A stretch of DNA of 64,000 nucleotides from Gemmatimonadaceae bacterium (GTDB lineage Bacteria; Gemmatimonadota; Gemmatimonadetes; Gemmatimonadales; Gemmatimonadaceae), in NCBI GenBank assembly GCA_035606695.1, contig DATNEW010000015.1, positions 186,001 to 250,000 on the forward strand, written 5' to 3'. The translations under genes were made by a program, and so were the position numbers. This document shows positions 15,653-54,487 of this stretch, one piece after another (position 1 is the stretch's first letter; each line of letters starts with the position of its first letter). The notes beneath the pieces were generated by a model. It was not told where the DNA came from and did no database searches. It saw nothing but the letters and a program-made list of their open reading frames with translations.

Positions 15653-15813
15653 GGGGCGTCGAGGCGTATGGGCGTCGGGGCGTATGGGCGAAACTACGAA
15701 CGGCGACGGAATGCTTCCGCCGCCCTTCGCCTTATCGCCTGTTGTCTTTCCCGCCCCGACGCCCCGACGCCCCGACGCCCCGACGCCTATACGCCCCGAC
15801 GCCTATACGCCCG
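15653..15813. repeat. family-2 octamer tracts, inverted pair
   Basis: A GGCGT-rich tract (15653-15692) ending in GGGCGTATGGGCGAAAC is followed about 60 bases later by its inverse, tandem CGACGCCC units (15750-15813). The spacer contains a hairpin (CGGAATGCTTCCG). The right tract runs into the 3' end of the lrp gene. The same layout with the same inner boundary words occurs at 47698-47871. Confidence 0.8.
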
Positions 15814-19803: not shown

Positions 19804-20282
19804 TCATCCCGAACCCGAGCGAAGCCACGATCGTCATCCCGAACCCGAGCGAAGCGAGGGTGAGGGATCTAACGTCCCGATAGAGGGCCAGCATCAGTCG
19901 GAAGACCAATGTCAGCCGAGCGATCGAGCCAGTCAGGATTGTGTTGTTCGATGAGATCGATCTTTTTCGATCGGCGCCACGCCTTGAGTTCCTTTTCACG
20001 AGAAATTGCGCTGTAGGCATCGGAGTAGATCTCGAAATGCACGAGTCGCGTGATACGATAGCGTTGGGCGAACGCCGATCCATGACCGTTCCGGTGTTGC
20101 CACAACCGACGGATGAGATCGTTCGTAACCCCGACGTAGGTCGTGCGACTCTCGCTCGACAGGATATACACGTAGAACTGCTTCATGATGAGATATCCCT
20201 CTAACCGATACGCAAGATTCCTCGCTGCGCTCGGAATGACGGCAGCAGATCAGCCAGCATTCCTCGCTGCGCTCGGAATGAC
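19803..20282. mobile_element. candidate mobile element: GIY-YIG nuclease gene between family-1 inverted arms
   Basis: Left arms start at 19803 and 19833 (GTCATCCCGAACCCGAGCGA, then GAGGGTGAGGGATCTAACG). Right arms end at 20240 and 20282 (AGATTCCTCGCTGCGCTCGG then AATGAC). The arms are imperfect inverse copies. They enclose only the GIY-YIG gene, whose stop codon lies in the left arm. The doubled arms at each side may record repeated insertion. No target-site duplication could be seen with confidence. Mobility is inferred. Confidence 0.5.
19869..20186 (-). CDS. stand-alone GIY-YIG family endonuclease
   Basis: This 105-aa single-domain nuclease starts MKQFYVYILSSESRTTYVGV, in which YVY and YVG form the GIY-YIG signature. 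NDLIRRLWQH carries the catalytic Arg, and SREKELKAWRRSKKIDLIE carries the likely metal-binding Glu. This is the UvrC-like/UPF0213 type found as a short isolated gene. It lies between paaG and paaH on the opposite strand and is bracketed by dispersed repeats, which suggests it arrived as a unit and is unrelated to phenylacetate metabolism. Confidence 0.92.
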   Translation of the reverse strand: MKQFYVYILSSESRTTYVGVTNDLIRRLWQHRNGHGSAFAQRYRITRLVHFEIYSDAYSAISREKELKAWRRSKKIDLIEQHNPDWLDRSADIGLPTDAGPLSGR

Positions 20283-44715: not shown

Positions 44716-47697
44716 ATGTCCATGCACATGAAACGGGTCGTTGTTGTGTTGCTCACTCTCCCCTCCGTCGCCGCGTTCGCCCAAGCGCCCAAGAAGGCGC
44801 TGACTCAGGCCGACTGGGACAAGTGGAAGTCGATCAATGCGCCCGCGCTGTCGAACGACGGCAAGTGGGCCGTTTACACGCTGCTCCCGCAGGTCGGCGA
44901 CGGCGAGCTGGTGATTCGCTCGACGACCGGCAACACGGAGTATCGCGTGCCGCGCGGATACCTTTCGCGCCCGAACAACATCCCCGGCGGACTTCGCGGT
45001 CCGGCCGGTGGTACGGGCGAAGAAGCGCCGACCGGTCCGACCGCGCCACCGGCGTTGATCTCCGCTGACAGCAGGTTCGTCATCGTCAGCGTTGAGCCGT
45101 CCGAGGCCGAAGTCGAAAAGATGGGCCGCAATCCCGGCGCCGCGGCGAACCGCCAGTCGTTGGTCATCGTGAATCTCGCCGACGGCAAAACCACGACGAT
45201 CTCCGGTGCGCGCAACGCGCGGGTCGCGAAGGACAACGGCACTTGGGTCGCCTACACCGAATCCGATAGCGTCACGGGCAACGCCGGTAACGCCGGGGGC
45301 GCTGCGCCGACGGCGAACGGTGGTGGTCGCGGCGGACGTGGTGGGCGTGGCGGTGGCGGAGGCGCTGCTGGTGGCCGGCGTCAGTTCGGCTCGCTGCTCG
45401 TACTCCGCAACCTCGCTACGGGCACCGAGGAGAAGCTCGGCGACGTTCTTGGCTACGCCTTCGACGATAGCGCCAAGGTGCTCGCCTACAGCGTCGTGTC
45501 GCGCGACTCCACCAAGGACGGCGAGTTCATTCGCAACATGGCGAACGGCTCGACGCAGACGCTGCTCTCGGGCAACGGCGACTATCGCACGCCGGTGTTC
45601 GATCACGCGCAGCACGACATCATCTTCCTCTCGAACAAGGACGAATTCGGCCGCCGCGGCGCGCGCTTCTCGCTGTACGAAGCGCCCGTTACTGGCGGCG
45701 CGGCGCAGTTGCTCGTGGCGCCGTCGCAGGTGCCGACCGGCTTGCACATCGCGGACGCGGGTCCGCTCGCCTTCACGCGTAGCGGCACGGCAATCACGTT
45801 CAACGTCGCGCCGCCGCCGATCGACTCGGTGCCGGCTGATTCGCTCGTCGGCAAAGCGGTGTTCGATCTCTGGCACTATAAGGACAAGACGCTCCAGCCG
45901 ACGCAGAAGTTGAACGCACAGCGCGATCGCAATCCATCATACGCGGCGATCTACTATCCGGCGACGAAGAAGCTGGTGCAGCTCGCCGACGAATCGATTC
46001 CGCAGGTGACCGTGTCCGACGACGGCCGCGTCGGTCTCGCGAACTCGCGCGAGCGCTACATGATCGAGCAAATGTGGGGCGACGGCGGCATGGACGTCTA
46101 CGTGATCGATCCGTCGACGAACACCCGCAAGCTCATCGCCGAGAAGATCAACGGGCAGGCGACGCTCTCGCCGGACGCGAAGTACGTCGTCTACTACAAC
46201 AAGAAGAGCTGGTACTCGTACAACATCGCGAGCGCCAAGGCCGTGAACCTCACCAAGGGGATGAACGTCCACTTCGACAACGAGACCGACGATCATCCGG
46301 CTGAACCGCCCGCGTGGGGCCTGGCCGGCTGGACGAAGGGCGACGGCGCGGTCCTGATCTACGATCGCTACGACGTGTGGCAGTTCGATCCGAGCGGCGC
46401 GACGAAAGCGGTCGTCGTCACCGATTCGGTCGGCCGCAAGAGCCACATTCAGTTCCGTCTTGCGGAAGCGGGCGGCGGCCGCGGTGGTCGCGGTGGCGGT
46501 GGTCGCGGCGGCGCCGGCGCGGGCAGCGCCGAAGATCGCGCGCTGGATGCGAATCAGGTGATCGACCTCCGCGCCGTCGACCAGGAGACCATGGCGAGCG
46601 GCTACTACCGCGATCAGCTCGGCGTGAAGAAAGCGCCGGAGAAAGTCGTGATGGCGAACGTGGCGTATGGCCCGGTGATCAAGGCCGCCAACGCGGACGT
46701 CTACATGACGACGAAGAGCACCTTCGTCGAGTTCCCGAATCTGTGGGTCGGTCCGTCGCTCACGAACCTGTCACAGATCTCTGATGCGAACCCGCAGCAG
46801 AAGGATTACAAGTGGGGCACCGCGGAGCTCGTGCGTTGGACGAGCGCCGACGGCAAGCCGCTCAAGGGCATTCTTTACAAGCCTGACGGTTTCGATCCGT
46901 CGAAGAAGTACCCGATGATCTCGTACTACTACGAGATCCTCTCGAACGGGTTGTACAGTTACGTGCCGCCGAACGGCCGCAACGTCATCAACCCGACGCA
47001 CTACGTGTCGAACGGGTACGTCGTATTCGAGCCGGACATCGTGTATTCGAACGGACATCCGGGCATGAGCGCGTACAACTCGATCGTGCCGGGCGTGAAG
47101 GCCGTCATCGCCAGGGGCGGCATCGATGAGAAGCATCTGGGCCTGCAAGGACAGTCGTGGGGCGGCTACCAGACGGCGTTCGTGATCACGAAGACGCACA
47201 TGTTCGCCGCCGCCATGGCGGGCGCGCCGGTCGCGAACATGACGAGCGCCTACGGCGGCATTCGCTGGGGCACGGGTATCTCGCGCGCCGGCCAGTACGA
47301 GTCGGGCCAGAGCCGCATCGGCAAGCCGCTGGTCGACGCGCCCGAGCTCTACCTCGAGAACTCGCCGCTCTTCCACCTGCGCAACGTCACGACGCCGCTG
47401 TTCATCATGAACAACGACGCCGACGACGCGGTACCCTGGTACCAGGGGATCGAATTCTTCGTCGGCATGCGCCGGCTTGGCAAAGAAGTGTATTTCATCG
47501 ATTACAACAACGACGTCCACAATCCGGCGAGCCGCGCGAACCAGAAGGACATCGCGATGCGCATGCAGCAGTTCTTCGACAACAAGCTCATGGGCGCGCC
47601 GGCGCCGGATTGGATGGTGCACGGCATTCCGTACGTCGCGAAGGGGAAGGACCAGCTGGGGCCGGCGCCGGTGCAGGCGGGGGGGATTACGCCCTGA
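44716..47697 (+). CDS. exported S9 family (prolyl oligopeptidase) peptidase
   Basis: This 993-aa serine peptidase has a signal peptide (cleavage after FAQA). A long beta-propeller region is interrupted by two glycine/arginine-rich tracts, near residues 200-220 and near residue 595. A C-terminal alpha/beta hydrolase domain contains LGLQGQSWGGYQTAF (nucleophile Ser about residue 814), NNDADDAVPWYQG (Asp) and DVHNPA (His). It likely trims proline-containing peptides in the periplasm, feeding the uptake systems nearby. A strong terminator follows. Confidence 0.92.
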   Translation: MSMHMKRVVVVLLTLPSVAAFAQAPKKALTQADWDKWKSINAPALSNDGKWAVYTLLPQVGDGELVIRSTTGNTEYRVPRGYLSRPNNIPGGLRGPAGGTGEEAPTGPTAPPALISADSRFVIVSVEPSEAEVEKMGRNPGAAANRQSLVIVNLADGKTTTISGARNARVAKDNGTWVAYTESDSVTGNAGNAGGAAPTANGGGRGGRGGRGGGGGAAGGRRQFGSLLVLRNLATGTEEKLGDVLGYAFDDSAKVLAYSVVSRDSTKDGEFIRNMANGSTQTLLSGNGDYRTPVFDHAQHDIIFLSNKDEFGRRGARFSLYEAPVTGGAAQLLVAPSQVPTGLHIADAGPLAFTRSGTAITFNVAPPPIDSVPADSLVGKAVFDLWHYKDKTLQPTQKLNAQRDRNPSYAAIYYPATKKLVQLADESIPQVTVSDDGRVGLANSRERYMIEQMWGDGGMDVYVIDPSTNTRKLIAEKINGQATLSPDAKYVVYYNKKSWYSYNIASAKAVNLTKGMNVHFDNETDDHPAEPPAWGLAGWTKGDGAVLIYDRYDVWQFDPSGATKAVVVTDSVGRKSHIQFRLAEAGGGRGGRGGGGRGGAGAGSAEDRALDANQVIDLRAVDQETMASGYYRDQLGVKKAPEKVVMANVAYGPVIKAANADVYMTTKSTFVEFPNLWVGPSLTNLSQISDANPQQKDYKWGTAELVRWTSADGKPLKGILYKPDGFDPSKKYPMISYYYEILSNGLYSYVPPNGRNVINPTHYVSNGYVVFEPDIVYSNGHPGMSAYNSIVPGVKAVIARGGIDEKHLGLQGQSWGGYQTAFVITKTHMFAAAMAGAPVANMTSAYGGIRWGTGISRAGQYESGQSRIGKPLVDAPELYLENSPLFHLRNVTTPLFIMNNDADDAVPWYQGIEFFVGMRRLGKEVYFIDYNNDVHNPASRANQKDIAMRMQQFFDNKLMGAPAPDWMVHGIPYVAKGKDQLGPAPVQAGGITP

Positions 47698-47871
47698 CGG
47701 GGCGTATGGGCGTCGAGGCGTCGGGGCGTATGGGCGAAACGACGTAAGGGCATAACTGCGAAGACACTGGACATCTTCGGATGTTCGGTGTCTTTTGCTT
47801 TCCATACGCCCCGACGCCCCGACGCCCCGACGCCCCGACGCCCCGACGCCCCGACGCCCCGACGCCCCGAC
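47698..47871. repeat. family-2 octamer tracts, inverted pair
   Basis: The left tract (GGCGTATGGGCGTCGAGGCG up to GGGCGAAAC) is at 47698-47740. The right tract, at least seven tandem CGACGCCC units, is at 47804-47871. The spacer holds a strong terminator. The right tract ends four bases before the start codon of the next gene, which therefore has no ordinary ribosome-binding site. Confidence 0.88.
47762..47796 (+). terminator. intrinsic terminator with UUCG tetraloop after the S9 peptidase gene
   Basis: A 14-base stem (AGACACTGGACATC with GATGTTCGGTGTCT, two G-U pairs) closes a TTCG loop. TTTTG follows. It sits in the spacer between the two octamer tracts. Confidence 0.88.
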
Positions 47872-51345: not shown

Positions 51346-51941
51346 TGGATGGAATGCCGCGCGATCCGTTCGCGCGCTTCAGCATGCTGCTCGAGGCGGC
51401 GAAAGCGCTGCCGCGCGAAATCCTTCCCGAGCCGACGGCGATGGCCCTCGCCACGGTGGACGAGCGCGCGAGGCCGAGTCTGCGTATCGTGCTGCTCAAG
51501 CACGTGGATGAGCGCGGGTTCGTCTTCTACACGAACTACGAGAGCCGCAAGGGGCGCGAGCTCCTTGCGACGAAACGTGCCGCGCTCTGCTTCCATTGGC
51601 AGCCGCTCGAGGAACAGGTGCGGGTCGAAGGCGTCGCCGAACAGGTTTCGGCGGCGGAGGCCGACGCGTACTTCGCCTCGCGCGCGCGGGGCAGCCAACT
51701 CGGCGCGTGGGCGTCGACGCAGAGCAGCGTGATGGCGGAGGCCGACGAACTCGCTCGGCGGCTGGCCGAGACGGAGCAACGTTTCTCGGGTCGCGAGGTC
51801 CCGCGGCCGCCGTACTGGTCGGGCTTTCGCGTCGTTCCGGAGGTGATCGAGTTCTGGAAGAGCATGCCGAGCCGGCTGCACGTGCGGCATCGGTATACGC
51901 GGCGTGGCGAGGGGTGGGAGATTGGGCGGTTGTATCCGTGA
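51342..51941 (+). CDS. pdxH: pyridoxamine 5'-phosphate oxidase
   Basis: This 199-aa FMN enzyme forms pyridoxal 5'-phosphate. RIVLLKHVDERGFVFYTNYESRKGRELL and the C-terminal PPYWSGFRVVPEVIEFWKS with RLHVRHRY are PdxH signatures. It overlaps the permease stop (ATGATGG), so it is co-transcribed with the exporter although there is no obvious functional link. Two adjacent ATGs are possible. Octamer-repeat tracts begin just after its stop. Confidence 0.94.
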   Translation: MMDGMPRDPFARFSMLLEAAKALPREILPEPTAMALATVDERARPSLRIVLLKHVDERGFVFYTNYESRKGRELLATKRAALCFHWQPLEEQVRVEGVAEQVSAAEADAYFASRARGSQLGAWASTQSSVMAEADELARRLAETEQRFSGREVPRPPYWSGFRVVPEVIEFWKSMPSRLHVRHRYTRRGEGWEIGRLYP

Positions 51942-51942
51942 G

Positions 51943-52508
51943 GCGGGCGTCGGGGCGTCGGGGCGTCGGGGCGTCAGGGCGTCAGGGCGTCAGGGCGTCA
52001 GGAGGAAAGACGCTTGACGAGCGTTGTCAGCATTCGGCTCACGCCATCGAGTTGAGCTACAGCGGTGTGCAGACGTTCGCGAGGCACGAAACCGAGTCGT
52101 ACTGCCAATTCGAGTTCGGTTTCGAGCTCGGCAACTGAGCCGCGGGCGATCGAGACGAACCGGCGATATTCGGCCGTGCCGAACCGCGCTTTTCCTTCGG
52201 CGATGTTCGCCGGAATGGAAACCGCCGCACGACGCAATTGCGATGTCAGGCCGAAGCGCTCGTCCGCGGGAAACATGCTCGTCGCGGCGTAGATCTCGAC
52301 GACCAGCTCCATGGCAAGTCGCCATACCTCGAGCTCGCGATGATTCGTCGGAGCCCGTCGGGATGTTTGCGTTGAGTTCATGCGCCGATCGTAACGCGGC
52401 CCCGTCACGCGCGCGTCATGTACCCCCCGACGCCTCGGCGCCTCGGCGCCTCGACGTCTCGACGTCTCGACGCCCCGACGCCCCGACGCCTCGACGCCCC
52501 GACGCCCA
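51943..52508. mobile_element. candidate element: four-helix-bundle gene between family-2 octamer tracts
   Basis: A tract of GGCGTCGGGGCGTCAGG units (51943-52001) and its inverse, CGACGCCCC/CGGCGCCT units (52427-52508), enclose a single small gene on the minus strand. The gene's stop lies in the left tract. The composite resembles the family-1/GIY-YIG arrangement. Mobility is inferred, and the tracts differ from those elsewhere by mixed TCAG and TCGG units. Confidence 0.4.
51998..52381 (-). CDS. four helix bundle protein (23S rRNA intervening-sequence / TIGR02436 type)
   Basis: This 127-aa all-helical protein has the family segments HRELEVWRLAMELVVEIYAATS and LTSQLRRAAVSIPANIAEGKAR, and ends with a Leu-rich helix (LDGVSRMLTTLVKRL). 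Such proteins are encoded in intervening sequences of 23S rRNA and as scattered single genes, often with repeats. The ATG chosen removes an upstream repeat-encoded stretch. It is on the strand opposite to pdxH and speA. Function is unknown; nucleic-acid binding has been suggested for relatives. Confidence 0.9.
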   Translation of the reverse strand: MNSTQTSRRAPTNHRELEVWRLAMELVVEIYAATSMFPADERFGLTSQLRRAAVSIPANIAEGKARFGTAEYRRFVSIARGSVAELETELELAVRLGFVPRERLHTAVAQLDGVSRMLTTLVKRLSS

Positions 52509-52522
52509 ATTATCTTCCCCAA

Positions 52523-54487
52523 ATGGCCACACGCATCGCTGACAACGTGCCGGCGGATTCAGAGGGCGGATCGACCTGGTCGATCGACGCCGCGCGCACG
52601 TTGTACAACGTCGAAGGGTGGGGTGCGGGTTTCTTCGACGTGAATGAGAAAGGGCACGCCGTCGTGCGGCCCGACAAGGAACGGCCGGAGCTCGAGATCG
52701 ATCTCTACGAGATCACGAATGATCTCGAGGAACAGGGCATCGCGCTGCCGGTGCTGCTGCGATTCTCCGACATTCTGCGGTCGCGCATCGAGTCGCTGAC
52801 CACGCGCTTCGATCAGGCGCGCGAGGAATTCGGGTATACCGGCGGGTATACCACGGTCTACCCGATCAAGGTGAATCAGCAGCGGCACGTGGTCGAGGAG
52901 ATCGTGGAGTTCGGCAAGGCGCACGGCGTCGGCCTCGAGTGCGGAAGCAAGCCGGAGCTGCAAGCGGTGCTCGGTCTCTCCGAGACGACGGACCACGTCA
53001 TCGTCTGCAACGGCTACAAGGACGAGGAGTTCATGCGCCTCGCCCTCATGGGCCAGAAACTCGGGCACAAGGTGTACATCGTCATCGAACAGCTGAGCGA
53101 GATCGACGTGCTGCTCAGCGTCGCCGACGAGCTCGGCGTCGTGCCCACCGCCGGCATTCGCATCAAGCTCGCGTCGCGCGGGTTCGGGCGCTGGAAGGAG
53201 AGTGGCGGCGAGAAGTCGAAGTTCGGGCTGAACGCCGCGCAGCTGATGCAAGCCATCGACAAGCTGCGCGCCGCGGGCCGCCTCGACATCGTCAAGCTCG
53301 TGCACTTTCACCTCGGCTCGCAGATCACGGACATCCGCTTCATCAAGCTTGGCTTGACGGAGCTCACGCGGTTTTATGTCGAGCTGCGCAACATCGGTCT
53401 CGATATTACGCACGTCGACGTCGGCGGCGGACTCGGTGTGGATTACGACGGGACGAACTCGACCTCCGACGCGAGCGTGAACTACTCGCTGCAGGAGTAC
53501 GCGAACGACGTCGTGTACACGCTGGCCGAGGCGTGCCGGGAGCACGAGATCCCGATGCCGCACATCATCAGCGAGTCGGGGCGAGCGCTGACCGCGCATC
53601 ACGCGCTGCTGTTGATCAAGGTCATCGACGTCGAATCCCAGGGCGATCGGCCGCTGCCGGACCTGACCGACGACGACCATCAACTGCTGCACGAGATGAT
53701 GGCGGACTATCGAGACGCATCGCGCAAGAACGTCTCGAAGCGGCGCATTCGCGAGATCTTCCACGATCTGACGTTCGACAAGGAGCGCGCGCAAGAGATG
53801 TTCAACAGCGGCGTGTTTTCGCTGCGCGAGCGCGCCATGGCGGAACAGCTCTACTTTGGCACGGTGAACGTGTTGTCGAAGTTCGTCGAGCGGCACCGCG
53901 ACGATTTCGAGGACATCATCACCGATCTCGATGCGACGCTGGTCGACCGCTACTTCTGCAATTTCTCATTGTTCCAGTCGCTGCCCGACAGTTGGGCGAT
54001 CGACCAGCTCTTTCCGATCATGCCGATTCACCGGCTGGATGAGGAGCCGATGCGCCGCGGCTCGCTGCAGGACGTGACGTGCGACTCCGACGGAAAGATC
54101 GATCGGTTCGTGGGCGAGAAGGGCGGCAACCCGAGCCTCGAGCTGCACGAGTTCCGCGACGGCGAGCCCTACATGCTCGGCGTGTTTCTCACCGGCGCGT
54201 ACCAGGAGATCCTGGGCGACCTGCACAATCTCTTCGGGGATACGAACGCGGTGCACATTCGGCTAGGGCCGAACGGCAGCTATGAGGTGACGGATCTCGT
54301 GCACGGCGATACCGTGACTGAAGTGCTCAATTACGTTCAGTTCCGCGCGACCGATCTCTTGCAGACGTTTCGGCGCAAGGTGGCGAGCGCGAAGCACATC
54401 AGCCGGCAAGAAGCGAATACGTTCATCGCGGATTACGTGGCCGGGCTCGAGGGCTATACCTACCTCGAGGGTGAGGCGGCGCAGTAG
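52523..54487 (+). CDS. speA: biosynthetic arginine decarboxylase
   Basis: This 654-aa PLP enzyme makes agmatine from arginine, the first step of a polyamine route. TTVYPIKVNQQRHVVEEIVE carries the PLP Lys (about residue 115). GLECGSKPELQAVL, VHFHLGSQITDIRFIK, HVDVGGGLGVDYDG and a large C-terminal domain with FLTGAYQEILGDLHNLFGD complete the fold. The ATG chosen lies 14 bases after the octamer tract; codons further upstream only encode tract repeats. No agmatinase is seen downstream. Confidence 0.96.
   Translation: MATRIADNVPADSEGGSTWSIDAARTLYNVEGWGAGFFDVNEKGHAVVRPDKERPELEIDLYEITNDLEEQGIALPVLLRFSDILRSRIESLTTRFDQAREEFGYTGGYTTVYPIKVNQQRHVVEEIVEFGKAHGVGLECGSKPELQAVLGLSETTDHVIVCNGYKDEEFMRLALMGQKLGHKVYIVIEQLSEIDVLLSVADELGVVPTAGIRIKLASRGFGRWKESGGEKSKFGLNAAQLMQAIDKLRAAGRLDIVKLVHFHLGSQITDIRFIKLGLTELTRFYVELRNIGLDITHVDVGGGLGVDYDGTNSTSDASVNYSLQEYANDVVYTLAEACREHEIPMPHIISESGRALTAHHALLLIKVIDVESQGDRPLPDLTDDDHQLLHEMMADYRDASRKNVSKRRIREIFHDLTFDKERAQEMFNSGVFSLRERAMAEQLYFGTVNVLSKFVERHRDDFEDIITDLDATLVDRYFCNFSLFQSLPDSWAIDQLFPIMPIHRLDEEPMRRGSLQDVTCDSDGKIDRFVGEKGGNPSLELHEFRDGEPYMLGVFLTGAYQEILGDLHNLFGDTNAVHIRLGPNGSYEVTDLVHGDTVTEVLNYVQFRATDLLQTFRRKVASAKHISRQEANTFIADYVAGLEGYTYLEGEAAQ

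Follow-up and report, generated by a model that had tools for sequence, protein, structure and literature searches.

IVP/S23 genes associated with inverted arrays of short tandem repeats: a candidate minimal mobile element between pdxH and speA in a Gemmatimonadaceae genome

Genes of the IVP/S23 family, which encode four-helix-bundle proteins, are evidently associated, genome by genome, with short inverted repeat arrays located between other bacterial genes, the origin of these arrays being so far unexplained. The example described here lies in a stretch of 64,000 nt ('the window') on contig 15 of the 5.9 Mb genome of a Gemmatimonadaceae bacterium (G000), where a single IVP gene is enclosed by inverted arrays of an octamer (Table 1). 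This locus is considered, with reasonable though far from complete confidence, to be a minimal mobile element comprised of arm, IVP gene and arm, with derivatives lacking the open reading frame (ORF), in which the IVP protein is read as the element's own mobility factor.

Table 1. Coordinates of the features discussed, numbered from the first letter of the window
Feature	Position	Strand	Remarks
ORF-less octamer element	15653..15805		inverted arms, short hairpin-rich spacer; bounds approximate
ORF-less octamer element	47696..47871		inverted arms, terminator-like hairpin inside; bounds approximate
pdxH (pyridoxamine 5'-phosphate oxidase), left host gene	51348..51941	+	PF01243/PF10590
Entire insertion: arm, IVP gene plus leader, arm	51942..52508		~565 bp; bounds judged via relatives' empty sites
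Left arm, octamer array GGGGCGTC then GGGCGTCA	51945..52002		holds IVP stop codon; 8-nt self-match scan
IVP/S23 family four-helix-bundle gene, 127 aa	51998..52381	-	PF05635, TIGR02436
Leader, right arm to start codon	52382..52430	-	ATGACG/AATGATGA-like words over-represented here across the family
Right arm, octamer array CGCCTCGG/CGACGTCT/CGACGCCC	52431..52507		upstream of IVP gene, G-rich on its sense strand
speA (biosynthetic arginine decarboxylase), right host gene	52523..54487	+	PF02784/PF17810/PF17944

The element directly abuts the pdxH stop codon (TGA, 51939-51941). Its IVP gene, the only one enclosed by the arms, has PF05635 (23S-rRNA-IVP/S23) as its sole family match, scoring 122.5 bits (E 1.1e-35) against a curated cut-off of 33.8, and the encoded protein also exceeds the cut-off of the TIGR02436 profile (118.4 bits against 24), making it a member of both. 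With start codons selected by rule, the gene runs on the minus strand from an ATG at 52381 to a TGA at 52000-51998, the stop codon being read out of the octamer array (CTGACGCC). The preliminary description of this DNA had recognised a four-helix-bundle gene, of a family known from rRNA intervening sequences (IVS), between inverted octamer tracts with its stop inside one of them, and was accurate in each respect; the ORF then listed, of 174 aa (51998-52522), extends into the right array; translation probably starts at a codon inside the arms.

The left arm is the reverse complement of the right, which a scan for 8-nt self-matches found to be built of GACGCCCC-type units inverted relative to the left array. 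The best inverted match between the 200-nt flanks of the gene scores 37, whereas scores of at least 30 were obtained at 6 of 2,000 random placements in the window. The arms are two of only four such octamer tracts in the window. Folding predicts a single long stem for the element, whichever strand is taken as RNA. No part of the window matches Rfam at gathering scores, and identity with a known RNA family was rejected accordingly.

The other five genomes of the genus all have pdxH directly next to speA, and the gap of some tens of bases between the two contains neither octamers nor a gene. The comparison with empty loci advocated by the preliminary description therefore finds arms and gene jointly absent from relatives and jointly present here, and the locus is, on this comparative evidence, an insertion of ~565 bp. 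Filled and empty sites in close relatives, as expected of a transposable element, are found not only among these congeners but also among plasmids. In cyanobacterial plasmids, IVP genes occupy the stop-start junctions of operons, for example cas6/cas4, cas10/cmr3 and nrdB/nrdA, and the corresponding junction is empty in Nostoc-type plasmids that are up to 98% identical. Plasmids pC052_D and pNsp_c share a protein, WP_104899637, which in one of them has an element bearing TCAGGAG arms on one side and in the second an element bearing GGGAAAA arms on the opposite side, each plasmid being without the other's insertion. Dispersed copies homologous exactly between their termini, likewise characteristic of transposable elements, are exemplified by two paralogues at unrelated sites in genome G034 (L085 and L344), which share 90% identity along 526 nt, beginning at the left arm and finishing at the right; BLAST reported no match beyond the arms. 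In Nostoc N6, an IVP gene is itself interrupted by an ORF-less element with the same arms, and truncated and ORF-less forms also occur (L262, L271 and L272). Insertion of arm, gene and arm as one unit is thus evident from these comparisons. Target-site duplications appear inconsistent, with ~5 bp (GTAAT) at one plasmid site, possible duplications of 4-5 bp at two and none visible for the G034 paralogues, which would count against the mobile-element reading.

Within the Gemmatimonadaceae, inverted arms were found at 58 of 64 IVP loci, their tandem arrays mostly having 7-nt units that differ from locus to locus; in G000 itself, three of the four IVP genes are located between inverted short tandem arrays, with units of 8 nt (the window), 7 nt (L010) and 13 nt (L011). 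Where 16 kb of surrounding sequence was used, inverted matches of at least 18 between the two flanks were found for 16 of 20 IVP genes and for 2 of 219 other ORFs (p = 2e-19); matches in direct orientation were not enriched, and left and right flanks drawn from different loci matched in 2.4% of cases. Across many phyla, a flank match of at least 16 was found for 39 of 73 IVP genes against 34 of 517 control ORFs (p = 4e-21), the 73 usable loci being drawn from the best 80 of at least 581 matches, leaning to one part of the family, and the controls coming from a simple ORF caller and including operon genes, so that the contrast partly reflects intergenic position. The cross-locus test, in which only 3.7% of flanks paired, is free of that weakness. 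About half of the IVP genes in the many-phyla set are without strong arms under this strict test.

Two exceptions to the usual arrangement may be described individually. The fourth IVP gene of G000 (L012, on G000:C9) has no array arms and is accompanied on one side by a large inverted repeat with nested hairpins. Two congeners carry an armless IVP gene in the same place, just upstream of an apparent rplU encoding ribosomal protein L21 (L072 and L073), which is possibly a fixed or domesticated copy.

When the arms of 75 elements were pooled, self-match reached 0.65, 0.64 and 0.62 at lags of 7, 14 and 21, respectively, compared with ~0.25-0.35 at lags other than multiples of seven. Of these 75 elements, 69 have an upstream arm rich in G on the coding strand (p = 1e-14), a fixed polarity between gene and arms that argues for a single unit rather than a gene fallen between repeats by chance. 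Arm units are shared only by pairs of IVP genes above ~70% identity, ruling out prediction of the arm unit from the IVP sequence at long range. In one pair of congeners, apparently the same site holds IVP genes with different arm units and moderately similar proteins (L075 in G014 and L081 in G095), reflecting either fast arm co-evolution or repeated insertion. In the spacers that separate the upstream arm from the gene, examined in 56 elements of the family, ATGACG and AATGATGA-like words are over-represented, the former occurring in 11 spacers where 1.1 were expected; these words may constitute a promoter or recognition motif.

Arrays without an IVP gene use the units of the genomes in which they occur. 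An exact 22-mer of the octamer has 34 copies in G000 and is found in 0 of 98 other genomes of the family, excluding the octamer as a general mark of IVP genes. Similarly, GAGCGTG is present in 196 copies in G016, which has an IVP gene with that arm, in two copies in G014 and in none of 12 others, while GACTAGT has 134 copies in G006 and none in 13 other genomes. In regions sampled from 20 genomes of the family, of varying completeness, 26 arrays of period 7 or 8 were found in 706 kb of IVP-rich genomes against one in 741 kb of IVP-free genomes (p = 1e-7), along with nine inverted array pairs against none; arrays of other periods showed no difference between the two groups. For 29 of 43 ORF-less arrays in 13 genomes, the best-matching IVP arm came from the same genome (3.3 expected), the p value being optimistic as arrays within one genome are non-independent. 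This pattern was seen in G000, G005, G006, G016, G019, G020 and G034. For some orphan arrays, such as ACTGCGA in G034, no matching IVP arm was seen, and the ORF-less arrays of G016 occur in both polarities. The relation between IVP genes and ORF-less arrays is, as far as their units reveal it, clearly a cognate one.

The proposal that this protein family may be linked to the spread of the octamer repeats is consequently strengthened in one part and has to be recast in another. A link between the IVP family and repeats is strongly supported, since most IVP genes have arms on both sides, ORF-less arrays have a unit in common with an IVP gene of their own genome, and genomes lacking IVP genes contain almost no arrays; the survey of homologues' flanks recommended at the time found inverted arrays near most of them, but not octamer tracts. 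The octamer is instead the local unit of a general phenomenon, each IVP lineage having its own, and most octamer sites in G000 (~20) are without an IVP gene and linked to it through the shared unit. The IVP protein may have a causal role in this spread.

The protein encoded in the window has a pI of 10.3, and IVP proteins are mostly basic, with a median pI of 9.2. They match no known catalytic family, and the families that they do match contain no nuclease or recombinase domain; their relatives in the PDB, 2gsc (XCC0516) and 2rld, are both uncharacterised proteins. In most related pairs, including the G034 paralogues at unrelated sites, dN/dS is ~0.05-0.15, with a value of 0.86 in one pair too similar to be informative, and the protein is evidently under strong purifying selection. 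A phage origin was rejected, as 50,697 phage records yielded no IVP match, and so was a role as a defence system, for which PADLOC gave no match.

If the locus is a mobile element, arm, gene and arm would insert together, mostly at gene boundaries, and the arm unit would belong to the element lineage. The inverted arrays of a short tandem unit would pair within one strand to give a long stem, and ORF-less pairs would be non-autonomous derivatives, given that they share their unit with the IVP gene of the same genome. The basic IVP protein would be the element's own mobility factor, a role in movement being suggested by its status as the only gene in the element, by selection across unrelated sites and by the cognate units. 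It might bind the G-rich heptad or octad arms, recognising them as hairpin DNA (or RNA), and would presumably work with host enzymes, as the families it matches have neither nuclease nor recombinase domains; these enzymes would supply the strand-transfer chemistry, cutting and joining, perhaps by way of a hairpin intermediate suggested by the long inverted arms. A common origin with rRNA IVS may also be envisaged. Besides the inconsistent target-site duplications, points against the mobile-element reading are the lack of a catalytic family match, the IVP genes without arms, the orphan arrays, the two polarities in G016 and the reliance of the genome-level correlation on sampled regions.

An element of this kind could instead be moved in trans by another enzyme of the host or of a transposon, with the IVP protein acting on its RNA to protect or regulate it, for example through binding of the transcript stem, and rendering insertion into operons tolerable. 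The absence of a match between IVP and any catalytic family would fit such an arrangement, as would the frequent sense-oriented position of elements within operons, including those of cas genes and of plasmids, and the rRNA form found in Coxiella, which is excised by RNase III and the protein of which may not be made (PMC4990558). It is nevertheless rather improbable, given that array families track both the presence and the unit of IVP genes and that no single companion gene was found: reverse transcriptase (PF00078, RVT_1) has no match in nine of the ten IVP-rich genomes searched, G020 being the exception, which also makes movement driven by a reverse transcriptase with an Avd-like partner unlikely. 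G000 has a single RVT_1 match, located on contig 14 and not with the window on contig 15.

Two further readings are much less credible. Were inverted intergenic arrays to be made by slippage and recombination, and IVP genes to settle among them secondarily, the many arrays without a gene would be expected, and a polymerase-slippage hypothesis for heptamers is cited in the available text of Rehm et al. (PMC4692102); this is already very unlikely in view of empty sites lacking both arrays and gene, paralogue homology that stops exactly at the arms, the fixed arm polarity and the scarcity of period-7/8 arrays in IVP-free genomes. Marginally less probable still is that the arms are mRNA hairpins, acting as terminators or stability elements and kept for the benefit of the host, with IVP binding them to regulate neighbouring genes. 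The long stem of the folded element, the purifying selection on the protein and the terminator-like hairpins enclosed by ORF-less octamer pairs in G000 would suit a cassette of this sort, but its presence is sporadic even among congeners, the neighbouring genes are functionally unrelated, and the units are specific to lineages and not to sites.

The mobile element preferred here has relatives of several kinds among known systems. In the IVS of helix 45 of Coxiella burnetii rRNA, the terminal stem measures 28 bp and the ORF, of the S23/IVP family, has (GACAGAT) heptamers right in front of its start codon (PMC4990558); mobility of rRNA IVS has long been suspected, having been proposed from older work according to the available text of the same paper. 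The window element, an S23/IVP ORF inside a terminal inverted-repeat stem, resembles these IVS in its protein family, in the stem around a single ORF, in the short repeats, which are heptamers in most of its relatives, and in sporadic presence. By contrast, it lies between the protein genes pdxH and speA in a window without an Rfam match, rather than inside an rRNA gene, and it is distinguished by inverted short-unit arrays, dispersed copies and ORF-less families with the same unit. Heptameric intergenic repeats have been described in Xanthomonas and Nostoc (GGGAATC type), where they form inverted pairs the origin of which was left open (PMC4692102), and as TAACTGA repeats (PMC4679880). These too are genome-specific 7-nt arrays, often in inverted pairs near ORF ends, differing in that the arrays reported here are linked to IVP genes sharing their unit; the available text of both papers does not mention S23 or four-helix genes, and IVP genes with heptamer arms are present in both Xanthomonas and Nostoc (L111, L152, L248 and L251). 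No literature linking rRNA IVS or IVP to heptameric intergenic arrays was found, in a search whose coverage left out most subscription journals and preprints.

In known repeat systems, REPs relate to RAYT genes, and MITEs to insertion sequences, as non-autonomous derivatives. The element is not a member of the REP/RAYT (TnpA-REP) class, but appears to work alike, with one coding copy flanked by inverted repeats and many genome-specific ORF-less copies of the same kind in genomes that have a coding copy. It differs in having no HUH (tyrosine) transposase gene between the arms, where the ORF encodes a four-helix bundle, and in arms that are tandem arrays, not single palindromes. The Avd protein of diversity-generating retroelements is a distant relative of IVP (phrog_3206, E 2e-8; NF033474, 21 bits against a cut-off of 80), from which the present case is set apart by the lack of an equivalog match with an adjacent reverse transcriptase and, in most IVP-rich genomes, of any reverse transcriptase match.

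It is an evenly balanced question whether IVP/S23 proteins at large are the mobility proteins of unrecognised and very widespread minimal elements bounded by inverted heptad or octad arrays, for which rRNA IVS would be one niche and scattered heptameric intergenic repeats largely ORF-less derivatives. If so, the role of S23/IVP proteins, elusive despite solved structures, the origin of rRNA IVS and the excess of 7-nt intergenic repeats would become a single testable story, and an element of ~400-600 bp would join the smallest candidates for self-mobility. Annotators would also be warned that IVP genes within cas, nrd and ribosomal operons are insertions and not parts of those systems.

The resemblance to a GIY-YIG unit noted in the preliminary description is formal only. 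Single-domain GIY-YIG genes (window 19959-20177, which is L188, as well as L186, L190, L192 and L197) have on either side inverted copies of another, REP-like sequence, GTCATCC(C/T)GAGCG...GGATCT, and none was seen inside octamer arms; together, gene and repeat look like a second pair of the same logic. Nested repeat families were observed at two other loci of G000, where ORF-less octamer pairs surround an inverted GTCATCCCGAGCG pair (L041) and a GCGCAAAGCCCGAACA-type tandem (L035). Within the window, a listed ORF at 47788-47871 starts inside an octamer array and reads TPRRPDAPTPRRPDAP, a type of array translation that can mislead gene start calls.
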